Of a DNA stretch of 9,482 bases, positions 122-5,319 are shown piece by piece. A program made the translations under genes and the position numbers. The first letter of the stretch is position 1. The number at the start of each line of letters is the position of its first letter. The DNA is taken from NCBI GenBank assembly GCA_016193065.1, contig JACPSX010000221.1, positions 1 through 9,482 of the forward strand, written 5' to 3'. Below the pieces are notes generated by a model, which was given only the letters and a program-made list of their open reading frames with translations, made no database searches and was not told where the DNA came from. This DNA comes from Candidatus Tectimicrobiota bacterium. Its GTDB lineage: Bacteria > JACPSX01.

Positions 122-433
122 ATGGAACTAATGTCCTGGCTTCTAGCGGGCGTTTTCGCTCTTGTCGCGTTCTGGCAATTCTCTGCAGCCAGAAGCGCCT
201 ACCGAAAGCTCAATACTCTTAACGAATACGTCCAGTTTTTGCTCTTTCAGCCGAAGGTCTATAACGATCACCGCGAGAAATTTCTTGGATTCGTGGCTGA
301 AAAATCTATGGCAAGCGTTTCCGATCAAGCGATGGCTTCATATCAAGCGATCGAGAACATGGCAATCCAGTTAGAAGACAAAATACTGGTGGGGAATGTG
401 GCAAGCCGCGGCCAACGTCAGGAGTCTCGATGA
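122..433 (+). CDS. Small single-pass membrane protein of unknown function (cassette gene 1)
   Basis: I do not recognise this 103-residue protein. Residues about 4-21 are strongly hydrophobic (SWLLAGVFALVAFWQF) and form one likely membrane segment at the N-terminus. After a short basic stretch (ARSAYRK), the rest is soluble-looking and helical, rich in A, Q, E and M. The start at 122 is chosen because AGGAGG lies at 112-117, four bases upstream, and because it puts the membrane segment at the very N-terminus. An in-frame ATG at 26 would add 32 proline- and charge-rich residues and is less likely. The stop lies only 7 bases before an attC-like site, the layout expected of an integron cassette gene. 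It could be a small membrane anchor or signalling protein, but there is no evidence for a specific role. Confidence 0.6.
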   Translation: MELMSWLLAGVFALVAFWQFSAARSAYRKLNTLNEYVQFLLFQPKVYNDHREKFLGFVAEKSMASVSDQAMASYQAIENMAIQLEDKILVGNVASRGQRQESR

Positions 434-440
434 CGCCCCT

Positions 441-500
441 GCCTAACCCGCACCTGGAGTCCGACGCGCTGATGCGCGCGGCTCAGGCGCAACGTTTGCC
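441..500 (+). other. Integron attC recombination site 1
   Basis: This 60-base imperfect palindrome has the attC layout. R'' GCCTAAC is at 441-447, followed by a 5-base spacer, L'' CCTGGAGT (453-460), a central hairpin, L' CTCAGG (482-487), a 6-base spacer and R' GTTTGCC (494-500). CCTG (453-456) pairs with CAGG (484-487). G457, T460 and A464 are left as extrahelical bases in the L'' arm, as attC recognition requires. The centre closes with CGCGC/GCGCG around a TGAT loop. R' keeps the core GTT but departs from GTTRRRY. That is tolerable, because the bases after the G^TT crossover belong to the next cassette. The site lies between two plus-strand genes, in the orientation expected for cassettes. 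Confidence 0.8.
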
Positions 501-603
501 TGACCGCAGGCGGTCGCCGAGGCCATTGTCTCATTCCTATGCGAACTTTCCGATCTTCCGAAGCGTCCGTAAGATGCACGGTGGGTGAGAACGGAGCAAC
601 ACT

Positions 604-1164
604 ATGAGTGTGGGAAGCCAAGTGGCCGACGCGATGAGAAAACTCTCGGAGGACCGCTTCGAGGACGCGGTTGTTGCTGCGAGTGTTGCACTGTCAGCAA
701 CTGCACGGCTGGAGTATCCGACAGAAGGGGACAAATCGGCATGCCGCAAGTTCTTGGAGCAGAGCCTCCCCATCATCAGTAAGATCGGCTGGGTGTCATT
801 CGGTGTCTCGCAACCCATCAACTTCAGGTATCGACGGCTCGATTCCAAAGCGACCGGCATCTGTGTCCGAACGATGCCGGAAATGCTTTATGACGTCGTG
901 CGGTGCACAGCAGTTCACGAGGCGGGACTTCCCGACAACCTACAGTTTACGAAGCAGTCCGTGATTCAGTTGGGGCCCGACGGAGAACTTGTATTACCGA
1001 TCGACGTAATCATTGGACTGCTGATCGCGATTGTCGCGTCGCCGAAGAACGCCCACCAGCAAGCCGAAGGAGATCCGGTGTTTTCGTTCGGGGGGAAGAG
1101 CATCCGGGTCAATGAGTTGTGGAGAGAGCGAGGCAAGATTGCAGCGTTCATCGGAATAAAGTGA
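604..1164 (+). CDS. Unknown 186-residue protein (cassette gene 2)
   Basis: I do not recognise this protein. The start has GGAG at 593-596, seven bases upstream. The N-terminal third is alanine-rich and helical. The middle has aromatic and basic stretches (INFRYRRLD) and a segment with Cys and His (RCTAVHEAG, about 100-108). Residues about 131-147 (LPIDVIIGLLIAIVASP) are very hydrophobic, but they lie inside a soluble-looking protein and are short for a membrane span, so a buried helix is more likely. The C-terminus is charged (ELWRERGKIAAFIGIK). There is no signal peptide. The gene sits between two attC-like sites, with a leader of about 100 bases and only 68 bases before the next site, so it forms one cassette of roughly 820 bases. 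The function is unknown. Confidence 0.7.
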   Translation: MSVGSQVADAMRKLSEDRFEDAVVAASVALSATARLEYPTEGDKSACRKFLEQSLPIISKIGWVSFGVSQPINFRYRRLDSKATGICVRTMPEMLYDVVRCTAVHEAGLPDNLQFTKQSVIQLGPDGELVLPIDVIIGLLIAIVASPKNAHQQAEGDPVFSFGGKSIRVNELWRERGKIAAFIGIK

Positions 1165-1232
1165 CGCCAGCCTCCTCGAGAAACACGCGGACATAGAAGG
1201 GGGTCGGGAGTCGATTCCAGATGAATAACATC

Positions 1233-1325
1233 GCCTAACGGATGCGGTTGATCGGGCCGGCACAGCGACCTTCCGTGCTTCAACGTCACCTCAACCGGCC
1301 CGGCAACTGATCCTGAGCGTTAGCT
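1233..1325 (+). other. Integron attC-like recombination site 2
   Basis: R'' GCCTAAC (1233-1239) faces R' GTTAGCT (1319-1325); five core bases pair exactly (CTAAC/GTTAG). Inside, CGGGCCGG (1253-1260) pairs perfectly with CCGGCCCG (1295-1302). The L arms between them (CGGTTGAT against CAACTG) pair only partly and with an uneven spacer. The loop of about 34 bases makes the whole site 93 bases, within the known attC size range. It follows the stop of the gene at 604-1164 by 68 bases, and another ORF starts 6 bases after it. It is less regular than the site at 441-500, so the call is somewhat weaker. Confidence 0.65.
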
Positions 1326-1331
1326 GTCACG

Positions 1332-1454
1332 ATGTTCGACACTGATCACGGGTTCTTGCAGAAGCTCAGGGGTCATGCGGCCCAAACCCGCACGTTTCTG
1401 AGCAACAAGATGAAGCCCGAGCGGGAACGCTCGGTGTGTCGCGGGTGGGGGTAG
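1332..1454 (+). pseudogene. Truncated cassette gene 3, tentatively DUF1780-like N-terminus
   Basis: An ORF of 40 codons opens 6 bases after the second attC-like site, the usual position for a cassette gene. It encodes MFDTDHGFLQKL and later FLSNKMKPERERSVCR. This resembles, from memory, the N-terminus of DUF1780-family proteins (putative nuclease-like, uncharacterised), where an FLS...ERERxVCR stretch is typical. The likeness ends at residue 37 or so. The following GWG and stop lie in G-rich sequence that belongs to the transposase left end beginning around 1,444-1,461. I infer that the gene was cut by that insertion or by a deletion with one end there. Family assignment is tentative; truncation is well supported by the abrupt end. 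Confidence 0.45.
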
Positions 1455-1564: not shown

Positions 1565-1868
1565 ATGCGCATGAAGAACCCCCCGCATCCCGGCAGGATT
1601 GTCCGCCAGGAGTGCATTGAGCTCCTGGGCTTGACCGTAACAGAGGCAGCGGAACACCTTGGCGTGACGCGACAGGCTCTGAACAACCTGGTGAACGAGA
1701 AGTCCGGGATTTCCCCGGAAATGTCCATACGGCTTTCCCAAGGCTTTCGGCAGCAGCCCGGAAGTGTGGCTTGGCATGCAGATGGAGTACGACCTTGCAC
1801 AGGCCGAAAAAAGCGCCGGCAAGATCAAGGTGACTAGAATTACCGCGACCCACCCGTCGCCGGGTTGA
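1565..1868 (+). pseudogene. higA: HigA-family antitoxin gene broken by a one-base frameshift
   Basis: The first 57 or so residues are a clear HigA/XRE antitoxin: PPHPGRIVRQE, then a helix-turn-helix (LTVTEAAEHLGVTRQALNNLV) and GISPEMSIRLS. The frame then turns into RQQPGSVAWHADG and would end at 1835-1837. Removing one C from the CCC run at 1737-1739 restores SKAFGSSPEVWLGMQ and MEYDLAQAEKSAGKIKVTRI, continuing to a TGA at 1866-1868 for a 100-residue protein, the normal HigA length. GGAG lies about 9 bases upstream (AAAGGAGAATGCGCC then ATG). The partner higB is missing apart from what looks like its last three codons at 1530-1541. It is either a true pseudogene or a sequencing error at a short homopolymer; the loss of higB favours decay. 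Confidence 0.8.
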
Positions 1869-2524: not shown

Positions 2525-2604
2525 TCAAAGGCGTGGAGCCGGCGCCTGCCACCTTACGCTCCACTGCGGCTTTAGGACAAGGGCCATGCCCCATTCTCCC
2601 GGTA

Positions 2605-2647
2605 GGTGATCACCATCTTGCATTCGGGGCGTGAGTGGCGATATGCT
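2605..2647 (+). promoter_or_regulatory. Possible hicBA promoter and operator
   Basis: A perfect 10-base palindrome, GGTGATCACC, lies at 2605-2614. A weak -35 (TTGCAT, 2618-2623) and a better -10 (TATGCT, 2642-2647, 18-base spacer) follow. The hicB start is 20 bases downstream of the -10. HicBA-type modules are usually autoregulated through sites near the promoter, so the palindrome is a candidate operator. This is position and symmetry only. Confidence 0.3.
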
Positions 2648-2666
2648 ATGTGAGGAGGACGACGCG

Positions 2667-2867
2667 GTGAAGATTGAGATCGAGCGTGAAGACGACGGTC
2701 GCTGGATTGCCGAAGTGCCCGACCTGCCCGGGGTCATGGCATATGGAGAGACGCGTAAAGAAGCCATTGCGAAAGTTCAGGCCCTGGCCCTGAGAGTAAT
2801 CGCCGACCGCCTTGACCATGGCGAAGCCATTCCGCAGCTCGACGAACTCTTCACGGTGCCTGTGTGA
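2667..2867 (+). CDS. hicB: HicB-family antitoxin, short form
   Basis: HicB antitoxins neutralise the HicA mRNA interferase by covering its active site. This 66-residue protein has the HicB (UPF0150) fold signature: a strand (VKIEIERE), then DGRWIAEVPDLPGVMAYGET, then a helix (RKEAIAKVQALALRVIADRL). It ends at FTVPV, so the C-terminal DNA-binding domain of longer HicB proteins is absent and any autoregulation would need another mechanism. GTG at 2667 is chosen because AGGAGG (2653-2658) lies eight bases upstream and the family start is close to KIEIE. An in-frame start further upstream would include the ribosome site itself. It overlaps hicA by 4 bases (GTGA), so the two are translationally coupled. 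Antitoxin-first order is the reverse of the best-known hicAB operons but is common for the short form. Confidence 0.85.
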   Translation: MKIEIEREDDGRWIAEVPDLPGVMAYGETRKEAIAKVQALALRVIADRLDHGEAIPQLDELFTVPV

Positions 2868-3079
2868 CCGAGTGGCCTTCAAGCAAAGCGCGGCAGGTGC
2901 TGGCGGCCCTTCTGCAGATCGGCTGGACCATCAAGCGCGAGGCCAAAGGGTCCCACCGGGTTCTCTCCCGCCCAGGATGGCCGGACTATGTTTTCGCGTT
3001 TCACGATCGCGAGGAGATCGGACCGCGCATGCTCAGGCGAATTGCCAAGCGGACCGGACTGAAACCGGAAGATCTGTAG
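2864..3079 (+). CDS. hicA: HicA-family mRNA interferase toxin
   Basis: HicA is a small double-stranded-RNA-binding-fold ribonuclease that cleaves mRNA and halts growth when HicB is lost. This 71-residue protein has the family layout: an N-terminal helix with ARQVLAALLQIGW, then KREAKGSHRVLSRPG, where His31 in GSH is the expected catalytic residue, a strand (DYVFAF), and the closing helix RMLRRIAKRTGL. Length is normal (60-80 residues). The GTG start overlaps the hicB stop by 4 bases, with no separate ribosome site needed. No key residue appears lost, so the pair looks functional. Confidence 0.87.
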   Translation: MTEWPSSKARQVLAALLQIGWTIKREAKGSHRVLSRPGWPDYVFAFHDREEIGPRMLRRIAKRTGLKPEDL

Positions 3080-3182
3080 AACTGCCGAATCTGATTCCGC
3101 GCTTGAGGGTGCTATCCGCGCCGTAAGTGGGCACTGAGTCTTCTCTGGTAGGTGCGGCATCACATCCAGTCTCCGGGTTATT

Positions 3183-3380
3183 AAGGCCGGGAAACGCCGT
3201 TGACGGAAAACTCTTCGCCGCAGGGACGACATCGCTCCCGGAAGTGATTCCGCTCTGACTGGGAAGGACACCTCCATGCCTGCCTGCCCCGCTGGGGCGG
3301 TAGGCAGGTGTGACGCACAGGCAGGGGGCAGGCAGGCTGCCCTTCCCCGCACGCCCAGAGGGCACCCGGGGGGAAGGAAG
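3183..3380 (+). repeat. Dispersed repeat, copy 2, interrupted by extra hairpin sequence
   Basis: Bases 3198-3277 are the counterpart of 2303-2382 (64 of 80 positions identical, no gaps). After the shared CACCTCCAT, copy 1 goes straight into its 22-base palindrome. Here there is instead a stem (CCTGCCT at 3279-3285 with AGGCAGG at 3302-3308, and CCCC with GGGG inside), then more GCAGG-type sequence. Only then comes a CTTCCCC...GGGGAAGG arm pair (about 3342-3378), the likely counterpart of the copy 1 palindrome. So this copy seems to carry an insertion of roughly 60 bases before its palindrome arm. It lies between hicBA and higBA. Confidence 0.6.
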
Positions 3381-3624: not shown

Positions 3625-3906
3625 ATGATCAAGACGTTTGCCGACAGGCATACGCAGGAGTTGTACGAAACGGGGAAGTCGAAGCGGTTTCCGCCGGAGA
3701 TTCGAAAGAGGGCGTTGCGGAAGTTGGAATACATCGATTTGGCGGCGGGATTGGATGATTTAAGGGTTCCACCCGGCAATCGGCTTCACGAACTGGAAGG
3801 GGATCGGAAGGGGCAATACTCCATTTCCGTCAACGACCAACGGCGTATTTGCTTTCGTTTCGTCGATGGCGACGCCTATGACGTGGAGCTTACGGATTAT
3901 CATTGA
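3625..3906 (+). CDS. higB: HigB/RelE-family ribosome-dependent mRNA interferase toxin
   Basis: HigB toxins cut mRNA on translating ribosomes. This 93-residue protein matches the family throughout: MIKTFADRHTQELYETGK, a middle helix pair (PPEIRKRALRKLEYIDLA), then LRVPPGNRLHELEGDRKGQ, YSISVNDQRRICFRF and the acidic tail DGDAYDVELTDYH. His55, Arg73/Arg74 and the C-terminal Tyr/His are in the places where the family keeps its RNA-binding and catalytic side chains. Length is normal. The ATG at 3625 is supported by the conserved MIKTF start; no ribosome site precedes it. The antitoxin follows after 12 bases, toxin first, which is the standard higBA order. Confidence 0.9.
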   Translation: MIKTFADRHTQELYETGKSKRFPPEIRKRALRKLEYIDLAAGLDDLRVPPGNRLHELEGDRKGQYSISVNDQRRICFRFVDGDAYDVELTDYH

Positions 3907-3918
3907 GTGAGGTGCGAC

Positions 3919-4233
3919 ATGAGCATTCCCAACACGAGAGAGAGGAAAGTTCGCCCGATCCATCCCGGCGAGATGATCCGGGAGGATTTTCTGCCGGACT
4001 ATGGGCTCACCGTATCGAGCTTTGCCAAGGCATTAGGAGTATCGCGGCAGACGGTTAACGAGTTGCTTCGGGAGCGTCGGGCGGTGAGTCCGGAGATGGC
4101 GCTGCGGCTCTCGCGGCTGTTTGGCAATACTCCGGAATTTTGGTTGAACGCGCAGCGTGCCGTGGATTTATGGGATGCAGCGAAGGTTGCTAAGAAGAAG
4201 ATTGAGCGTATCACTCCGTTAAGCGCCGCATAA
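3919..4233 (+). CDS. higA: HigA-family XRE antitoxin and repressor
   Basis: HigA binds and silences HigB and represses its own operon. This 104-residue protein carries the family entry motif (RPIHPGEMIREDFLPDYG), a helix-turn-helix at about 31-52 (LTVSSFAKALGVSRQTVNELL), and the following RRAVSPEMALRLSRLFGNTP and FWLNAQRAVDLWDA. ATG at 3919 is preferred over an in-frame GTG at 3907 because GAGG (3909-3912) sits six bases before it. It shares its plan but not its sequence with the frameshifted higA at 1565, so the two are separate acquisitions rather than a recent duplication. It looks intact. Confidence 0.92.
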   Translation: MSIPNTRERKVRPIHPGEMIREDFLPDYGLTVSSFAKALGVSRQTVNELLRERRAVSPEMALRLSRLFGNTPEFWLNAQRAVDLWDAAKVAKKKIERITPLSAA

Positions 4234-4245
4234 CCTCCCGGTTGC

Positions 4246-4283
4246 AAAGGCGGAAAGCTTCGTTGACAAAAACTTCCTCGCCG
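4246..4283 (+). repeat. Possible degenerate third trace of the dispersed repeat
   Basis: Thirty-eight bases here line up without gaps with 3183-3220; 27 match by eye, including CGTTGAC and CTCGCCG/TTCGCCG at the same spacing. The likeness fades after 4283. The trace lies just after the intact higA and marks the edge between the accessory half and the core genes. At this length and identity it could be chance. Confidence 0.3.
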
Positions 4284-4312
4284 TATGAATCGCTGGACAG
4301 GGGTTTGCGGAT

Positions 4313-4356: not shown

Positions 4357-5319
4357 TTGAGCATCATCGAGCGGGCCAAAAAGGTATTGGAAATCGAGAG
4401 CAAGGCCGTTGCGGCTCTGATCGACCGGGTGGGGCTGGAGTTTGTCTCCGCCGTGGAGCTCATTGATAAATGCCGGGGCCGCCTCATCGTCACTGGCATT
4501 GGGAAATCGGGGCTCATCGGAAAAAAAATCGCCTCCACGTTCGCCAGCATGGGCGTCCCAGCGCTCTTCATGCACCCTGTGGAGGGCGTCCACGGGGATC
4601 TGGGCATGGTCGTCAAAGGGGACGTGTTGATCGCCATCTCCAAGAGCGGCGAGACCGAGGAGATCCTCAAGCTGCTGTCGGTCATCAAGCGCTTCGGCAT
4701 CAAGTTAATTGCTCTCACGGGAAATCCGGAGTCCACACTGGCCCGCCGCAGCGACGTGGTCCTCAACGTGGGGGTCTCGGAGGAGGCCTGCGTCTTGGAC
4801 CTTCTCCCCACGGCCAGTACGACAGCCACTCTGGCCATGGGGGACGCTCTGGCGGTAACTCTCCTGGAAAAACGGGGGTTCAGCCCCGATGATCTGGCCC
4901 TTTTGCACCCCGGCGGGGTCATCGGGAAAAAGCTTCTCCTGCTGGTCGGGGATCTCATGCACAGCGGCAATGAGCTTCCGCTGGTTCGAGAAGAGGCCAC
5001 CTTGAAAGACGTCATTTATGAAATTTCCTCCAAACGTCTGGGGGTCACCAGCGTAGTGGACGGGGAGGGAACGTTGAAGGGAATCGTCACCGACGGGGAC
5101 CTCCGCCGTCTCATGGAGCGGCAAGAATTCCCAATTTCCGTGCGGGCGGCGGACTTCATGACGAAAAATCCCAAGACCATTGAGGATTCAGCCCTGGCAG
5201 CCGAAGCCCTGCAGGTCATGGAAAAACACTCCATTACCTCCCTTCTGATCCTGAACGGGTCTCGCCAGCCGAAGGGGATCATTCACCTCCACGACATTCT
5301 TCGATCCGGGGTGGTGTAA
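4357..5319 (+). CDS. kdsD: D-arabinose 5-phosphate isomerase (KdsD/KpsF family)
   Basis: This cytoplasmic enzyme converts ribulose 5-phosphate to arabinose 5-phosphate, the first committed step to Kdo, the inner-core sugar of lipopolysaccharide. The 320 residues match the family length. An N-terminal SIS sugar-isomerase domain holds TGIGKSGLIGKK (about 46-57), MHPVEGVHGDLG, AISKSGETEE (about 93-102) and LHPGGVIGKK, with His184 in the place of the catalytic histidine. Two CBS domains follow, starting at GDLMHSGNELPLV and at DFMTKNPKTIED. The TTG start at 4357 is chosen because the protein begins SIIERAKKVLEIESKAV as in relatives; the ribosome site is weak. kdsC follows 40 bases later, so the two are probably cotranscribed. 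The gene is intact, and its upstream neighbours are accessory. Confidence 0.95.
   Translation: MSIIERAKKVLEIESKAVAALIDRVGLEFVSAVELIDKCRGRLIVTGIGKSGLIGKKIASTFASMGVPALFMHPVEGVHGDLGMVVKGDVLIAISKSGETEEILKLLSVIKRFGIKLIALTGNPESTLARRSDVVLNVGVSEEACVLDLLPTASTTATLAMGDALAVTLLEKRGFSPDDLALLHPGGVIGKKLLLLVGDLMHSGNELPLVREEATLKDVIYEISSKRLGVTSVVDGEGTLKGIVTDGDLRRLMERQEFPISVRAADFMTKNPKTIEDSALAAEALQVMEKHSITSLLILNGSRQPKGIIHLHDILRSGVV

Follow-up and report, generated by a model that had tools for sequence, protein, structure and literature searches.

How did a bacterial contig come to begin with short orphan genes set between attC-like sites, with no integrase gene in view? In integrons, the bottom strand of the attC site, when single, forms a hairpin whose unpaired features are recognised by the integrase, IntI. 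A cassette, which is one promoterless gene together with its attC, is taken up or released when IntI exchanges strands at the G/TT of the R' box. Outside the well-studied Proteobacteria, chromosomal integrons are sparsely described. The window that we have analysed, 9,482 bases long, is a complete contig (C196) of a draft genome of 2.9 Mb, 294 contigs and 86% completeness. Between its left end and the first cassette ORF there are 121 bases; after the cassettes come genes of toxin-antitoxin systems and dispersed repeats and, from position 4357, a block of housekeeping genes. We propose that positions 1-1454 are very probably the remnant of an integron cassette array, of the type called CALIN (attC clusters without an integrase), left by the decay of sedentary chromosomal integrons.

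The first site (site 1; 441-500, plus strand, 60 nt) has all the features of an attC: AAC and GTT in its R'' and R' boxes, arms that pair, spacers and extrahelical bases. The R'' box GCCTAAC (441-447) is followed by the spacer CCGCA (448-452) and by the L'' arm CCTGGAG (453-459), in which one G is unpaired; on the other side of the hairpin between L'' and L', where T460 and A464 are also unpaired in the predicted fold, come the L' arm CTCAGG (482-487), the spacer CGCAAC (488-493) and the R' box GTTTGCC (494-500), with its expected exchange point at 494/495. This R' box keeps the GTT but is off the GTTRRRY consensus at two positions. As attCs do, site 1 folds better on the bottom strand than on the top (-19.4 versus -16.2 kcal/mol); the bottom-strand fold has a z-score of -3.0, and none of 200 shuffled sequences folded equally well. 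The full attC plan that an earlier reading of this DNA, made from the sequence only, had described here (R''/R' boxes, spacers of 5 and 6 bases, extrahelical bases in the L'' arm and a closing hairpin) is thus borne out by sequence and fold together.

To what extent do the two sites stand out from other DNA? For our first covariance model we used 26 attCs, taken from class 1 cassettes of plasmids, from a Vibrio array and, for one site, from another genome, with none from the genome under study. Run unfiltered on the window, it gave two matches at E<10, exactly the two flagged sites, with 21.3 bits (E 0.001) for site 1 and 8.9 bits (E 0.94) for site 2. In 98 kb of unrelated genomes, also searched unfiltered, the maximum was 13.1 bits and five matches reached at least 9.1, while 771 kb searched with default filters gave no match. 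Against this control maximum, site 1 is secure by covariance and site 2 is not. A second model, whose training set took in five attCs from this genome and left out both sites of the window, scored site 1 at 22.4 bits and site 2 at 7.6 bits; since twelve control matches lay at 9.2-12.9 bits, site 2 was not rescued by it. The Rfam models matched no attC and no group II intron in the window at E up to 1, and gave one sub-threshold microRNA match. A simple box-and-arm scanner, with which the sites were not separable from shuffled sequence, was dropped and the covariance models were used instead.

A sequence-plus-fold test was also applied, in which an R'' box RYYTAAC and an R' box GTTNNNN, 50-130 nt apart, have to be joined by a closed bottom-strand stem with R-box pairs. 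In the window only sites 1 and 2 passed; both lie on the plus strand, and their folds reach -18.7 and -18.8 kcal/mol. The mean for shuffled windows was 0.07 passes, and 2 of 300 such windows had at least two; a control of 1,542 strand-kb gave five passes with weaker folds (-5.8 to -13.4 kcal/mol). The thresholds of this test were chosen once the sites were known, so its outcome is support and not proof. The sequence-only reading had claimed two attC sites and had proposed a covariance check of both; with our own 26-attC model the claim stands for site 1, which is significant, while site 2 falls below significance and has the pass in the fold test in its favour.

The frequency of hairpins in GC-rich DNA, together with the off-consensus R' box of site 1, would suit the idea that the two inverted repeats arose by chance, without any integron here, but we regard this as extremely improbable: site 1 lies above all unfiltered matches in the 98 kb control and all filtered ones in the 771 kb control, and five attCs stronger than it, along with about ten intI loci, occur in the same genome. 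A chance origin of site 1 is very unlikely, and its boxes, arms and fold lead us to call it an attC with confidence.

Site 2 (1233-1325, plus strand, 93 nt) is divergent. It has a long stem with imperfect pairing, closed by the R'' box GCCTAAC (1233-1239) and the R' box GTTAGCT (1319-1325), and its spacers are uneven; strand exchange would be expected at 1319/1320. By covariance alone its scores in the two models lie inside the control range and are not significant. These scores and the uneven spacers are what might be expected if site 1 were a lone attC and site 2 an unrelated inverted repeat, such as a terminator-like or repeat-derived hairpin, in which case the locus would hold one cassette and no array. 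This we consider unlikely, since sites 1 and 2 are the only ones that pass the sequence-plus-fold test, both have the same strand and order, and a DUF1780-like gene begins 6 bases after the R' box of site 2, a gene start that fits a cassette boundary at that place. Judged by its boxes, stem and position, site 2 is a probable attC.

With site 2 taken as an attC, the segment reads ORF-attC-ORF-attC-ORF on one strand, head to tail and with short gaps. The first ORF (122-433, plus strand, 103 aa) has an AGGAGG upstream of its ATG and stops 7 bases before site 1; the second (604-1164, plus strand, 186 aa) stops 68 bases before site 2; the third (1332-1454, plus strand) begins with an ATG 6 bases 3' of site 2. 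The sequence-only reading had given these distances correctly, as well as the coordinates and spacings. The first two ORFs are orphans: neither belongs to a Pfam family, the first has no relative in 290 genomes, and the second has none among the plasmids or viral contigs searched and a single 51-residue match (E 9.8e-4) in 386 genomes. None of the genomes, plasmids and viral contigs yielded a homologue of either ORF fit for a comparison of the junctions. The third ORF is truncated, with a stop after 40 codons, and resembles the N-terminus of DUF1780 (PF08682, positions 4-34, E 0.0059, below the family cut-off). Its sole tblastn match in plasmids was weak (E 2) and fell on an annotated DUF1780 protein, and a genome search for DUF1780 had no match anywhere, the controls being equally without one. 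The recognisable array ends at about 1331-1454.

What lies beyond this end? A gene for a HigA-like HTH antitoxin (1565-1837, plus strand; HTH_3, E 2.4e-8), apparently frameshifted to judge from its reading frame, is similar to the window's own HigA at 3961-3986. Next on this strand come a hicBA toxin-antitoxin pair (2631-3079; HicB-like, E 6.7e-7, and HicA, E 2e-12) and a higBA pair (3625-4233; HigB-like, E 1.8e-20, and HTH_3, E 3.5e-10). We treat these genes as neighbours of the array, no cassette status being established for them. A copy of the hicBA unit (2596-3080, 485 bp), 90% identical and with unrelated flanks, is present at 7882-8367 of contig C188, which speaks against a mixture of organisms among the contigs. 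Nine matches genome-wide belong to a dispersed repeat, here R-A, that is about 110 bases long (CCCGGTTGTCAAGGGCGGAAAACTCCGTTGACGAAAAACTCTTCGCC...); copies lie in the window at 2302-2395, at 3173-3371 and, in part, at about 4240-4300, and others on C73, C137, C164, C233 and C292. Some of them stand shortly 3' of a toxin-antitoxin pair, namely brnTA on C233 and, in the window, hicBA and, as a partial copy, higBA. As a possible second cassette boundary R-A was rejected, having no special or conserved fold and no attC score. Throughout the toxin-antitoxin, repeat and housekeeping part of the window, 3' of the cassettes, there is no attC score. From 4357 onward the translations are of what we take to be KpsF/KdsD-like, KdsC-like and acyl-CoA carboxylase proteins, and a Pfam search found a PilZ protein encoded in this block. 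The closest KpsF match in the genome collection searched for relatives is about 55% identical, so that collection holds distant relatives only.

Where, then, is the integrase? The window has no intI, and no match in the draft genome (86% complete) exceeds the TIGR02249 cut-off. With full-length IntIs from three other genomes (448-472 bits) as references, these IntI-bearing genomes being of the same domain with no close relative of this genome among them, we found intI fragments on ten contigs (C41, C48, C49, C66, C73, C98, C103, C131, C145 and C188). Many are 55-85% identical to full IntIs, the pieces on C66 and C145 being the weakest, and none belongs to an intact gene. The recombinase matches on C78 and C31 are longer, but their identity to IntIs is only about 30%. 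In number, the broken fragments come to about a dozen in the one genome, and several of them consist of the last 20-60 residues only.

On three of these contigs the remnant has kept its surroundings. C49, C131 and C188 each carry an intI C-terminal remnant, then a cassette ORF and then an attC, all on the same strand, with attC scores of 33.4, 30.8 and 36.0 bits, respectively; the attC lies at the stop of the cassette ORF on C131, 4 bases after it on C49 and 29 bases after it on C188. The first cassette product of C188 is an FRG-domain protein and the next ORF encodes a HEAT-repeat protein. On C131 a DUF2971 fragment follows, and DUF2971 genes are present too in the Vibrio array used to train the covariance model. 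A further contig, C62, has two attCs (24.3 and 33.8 bits) around an ORF of 828 aa. A lossy genome-wide first look with the first model missed the attCs of C188 and C131, which cmsearch finds, and the attC counts for this genome are therefore lower bounds. With a covariance model that includes attCs of this genome, further candidates of 19-27 bits appear at C7:5839-5931, C48:4145-4241, C158:1007-1079 and C187:82-141.

The arrangement on C49, C131 and C188, with remnant, ORF and attC on one strand, indicates that the lineage once had sedentary integrons in reverse orientation. We infer that the cassettes of the window came from one of these platforms of the same genome, C196 itself ending before any intI could appear. 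Two to three cassettes stand head to tail, the 103-aa ORF with site 1, the 186-aa ORF with site 2 and the DUF1780-like start; in an active system IntI would recombine the folded bottom strand of each predicted attC at G/TT. Once intI was lost, the cassettes would have been stranded, fixed in place unless an IntI acted from elsewhere. Because intI is broken throughout the draft genome, they are most likely now fixed. We count against a remnant the covariance score of site 2, the off-consensus R' box of site 1 and the lack of any intI remnant in the 121 bases 5' of cassette 1; a further point against decay is that, at 86% completeness, an intact intI might lie in the missing part.

Could the assembly instead have split a living, still active integron, whose intact intI and further cassettes would lie to the left of C196 or in the 14% of the genome that the draft lacks? 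The contig does start just before cassette 1, the draft is in 294 contigs and 86% complete, and fragmented drafts are known to inflate CALIN counts (PMC9024848). An intact intI with an attI, as a complete integron would have, was not found adjoining the cassettes. We nevertheless hold a split living integron to be quite improbable, given that all of the roughly ten intI loci of the genome are broken, the R' box of site 1 is degenerate and cassette 3 is truncated. The sequence-only reading saw no integrase in view and suggested either that the locus is an inner or terminal part of a chromosomal integron or that its attC sites form a cluster without an integrase. The first point holds for the window and extends to a draft genome with broken copies only; the second is supported by a confident attC at site 1, a probable one at site 2 and the breakage of every intI copy in the draft, and the locus looks more like a remnant than like a live array.

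How the genome came by so many remnants is a separate matter. Pairs of intI remnants share 83-85% DNA identity, and in some the identity runs beyond the coding end of intI, over 181 bp in C49/C188 and 261 bp in C131/C73. Shared DNA past the intI end is as intragenomic copying would leave it. As a bolder and rather less likely history, a platform of intI with its adjoining 3' sequence may have multiplied within the genome to about ten copies, which would then have been inactivated en masse and have left dispersed cassettes, among them those of the window. The intI remnant of C49 is interrupted at about 1950-2200 by sequence that is found again, in part, on C98, C131 and C145 (77-90% identity over 140-154 bp), suggesting that repeats may have taken part in breaking intI. 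Platform copying, if true, would bear on how integron platforms spread within chromosomes. The finding also adds a case of decayed, reverse-orientation integrons from a genome without a close relative in the collections searched, and offers a natural example of the aftermath of integrase loss, in which attCs persist while intI is reduced to fragments.

How does this locus compare with known systems? Site 1 matches the 60-nt attCs of class 1 cassettes (those of aadA, catB and qac) in its length, in its spacers of 5 and 6 bases, in the extrahelical base of the L'' arm and in a CCGAC...GCGCGGCT core; it differs in having GTTTGCC for GTTRRRY and an extra unpaired T, and site 1 is associated with no resistance gene and no mobile platform. 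CALINs are common and are regarded as degraded integrons (PMC9024848). The window likewise has attC-bounded ORFs on one strand with no intI nearby, but only one of its two attCs is significant by covariance, and ten contigs of the same genome hold intI fragments. The default of IntegronFinder 2 calls a CALIN from at least two attC sites (PMC9024848), so the window might count there as a lone attC, site 2 being sub-significant by covariance alone. More than one IntI is found in 22% of IntI-bearing genomes (PMC9024848), and inactivated integrase genes are common, at 43-46% in one survey (PMC3108266). In Treponema, whose chromosomal integrons are reverse-oriented, T. phagedenis has lost intI and kept its attCs (PMC3607928). 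Similarly, the intI remnants of C49, C131 and C188 point towards cassettes on the same strand and the attCs have outlasted intI, whereas here the lineage is another one, many intI loci are broken in place of a single deletion, and the orientation is seen on those three contigs and not in the window. The element is of a known kind, an integron fossil, and the bacterial lineage that carries it is little studied; more unusual is how many intI remnants one genome contains, as are the DNA that some of them share past the end of intI and the isolation of the host lineage.
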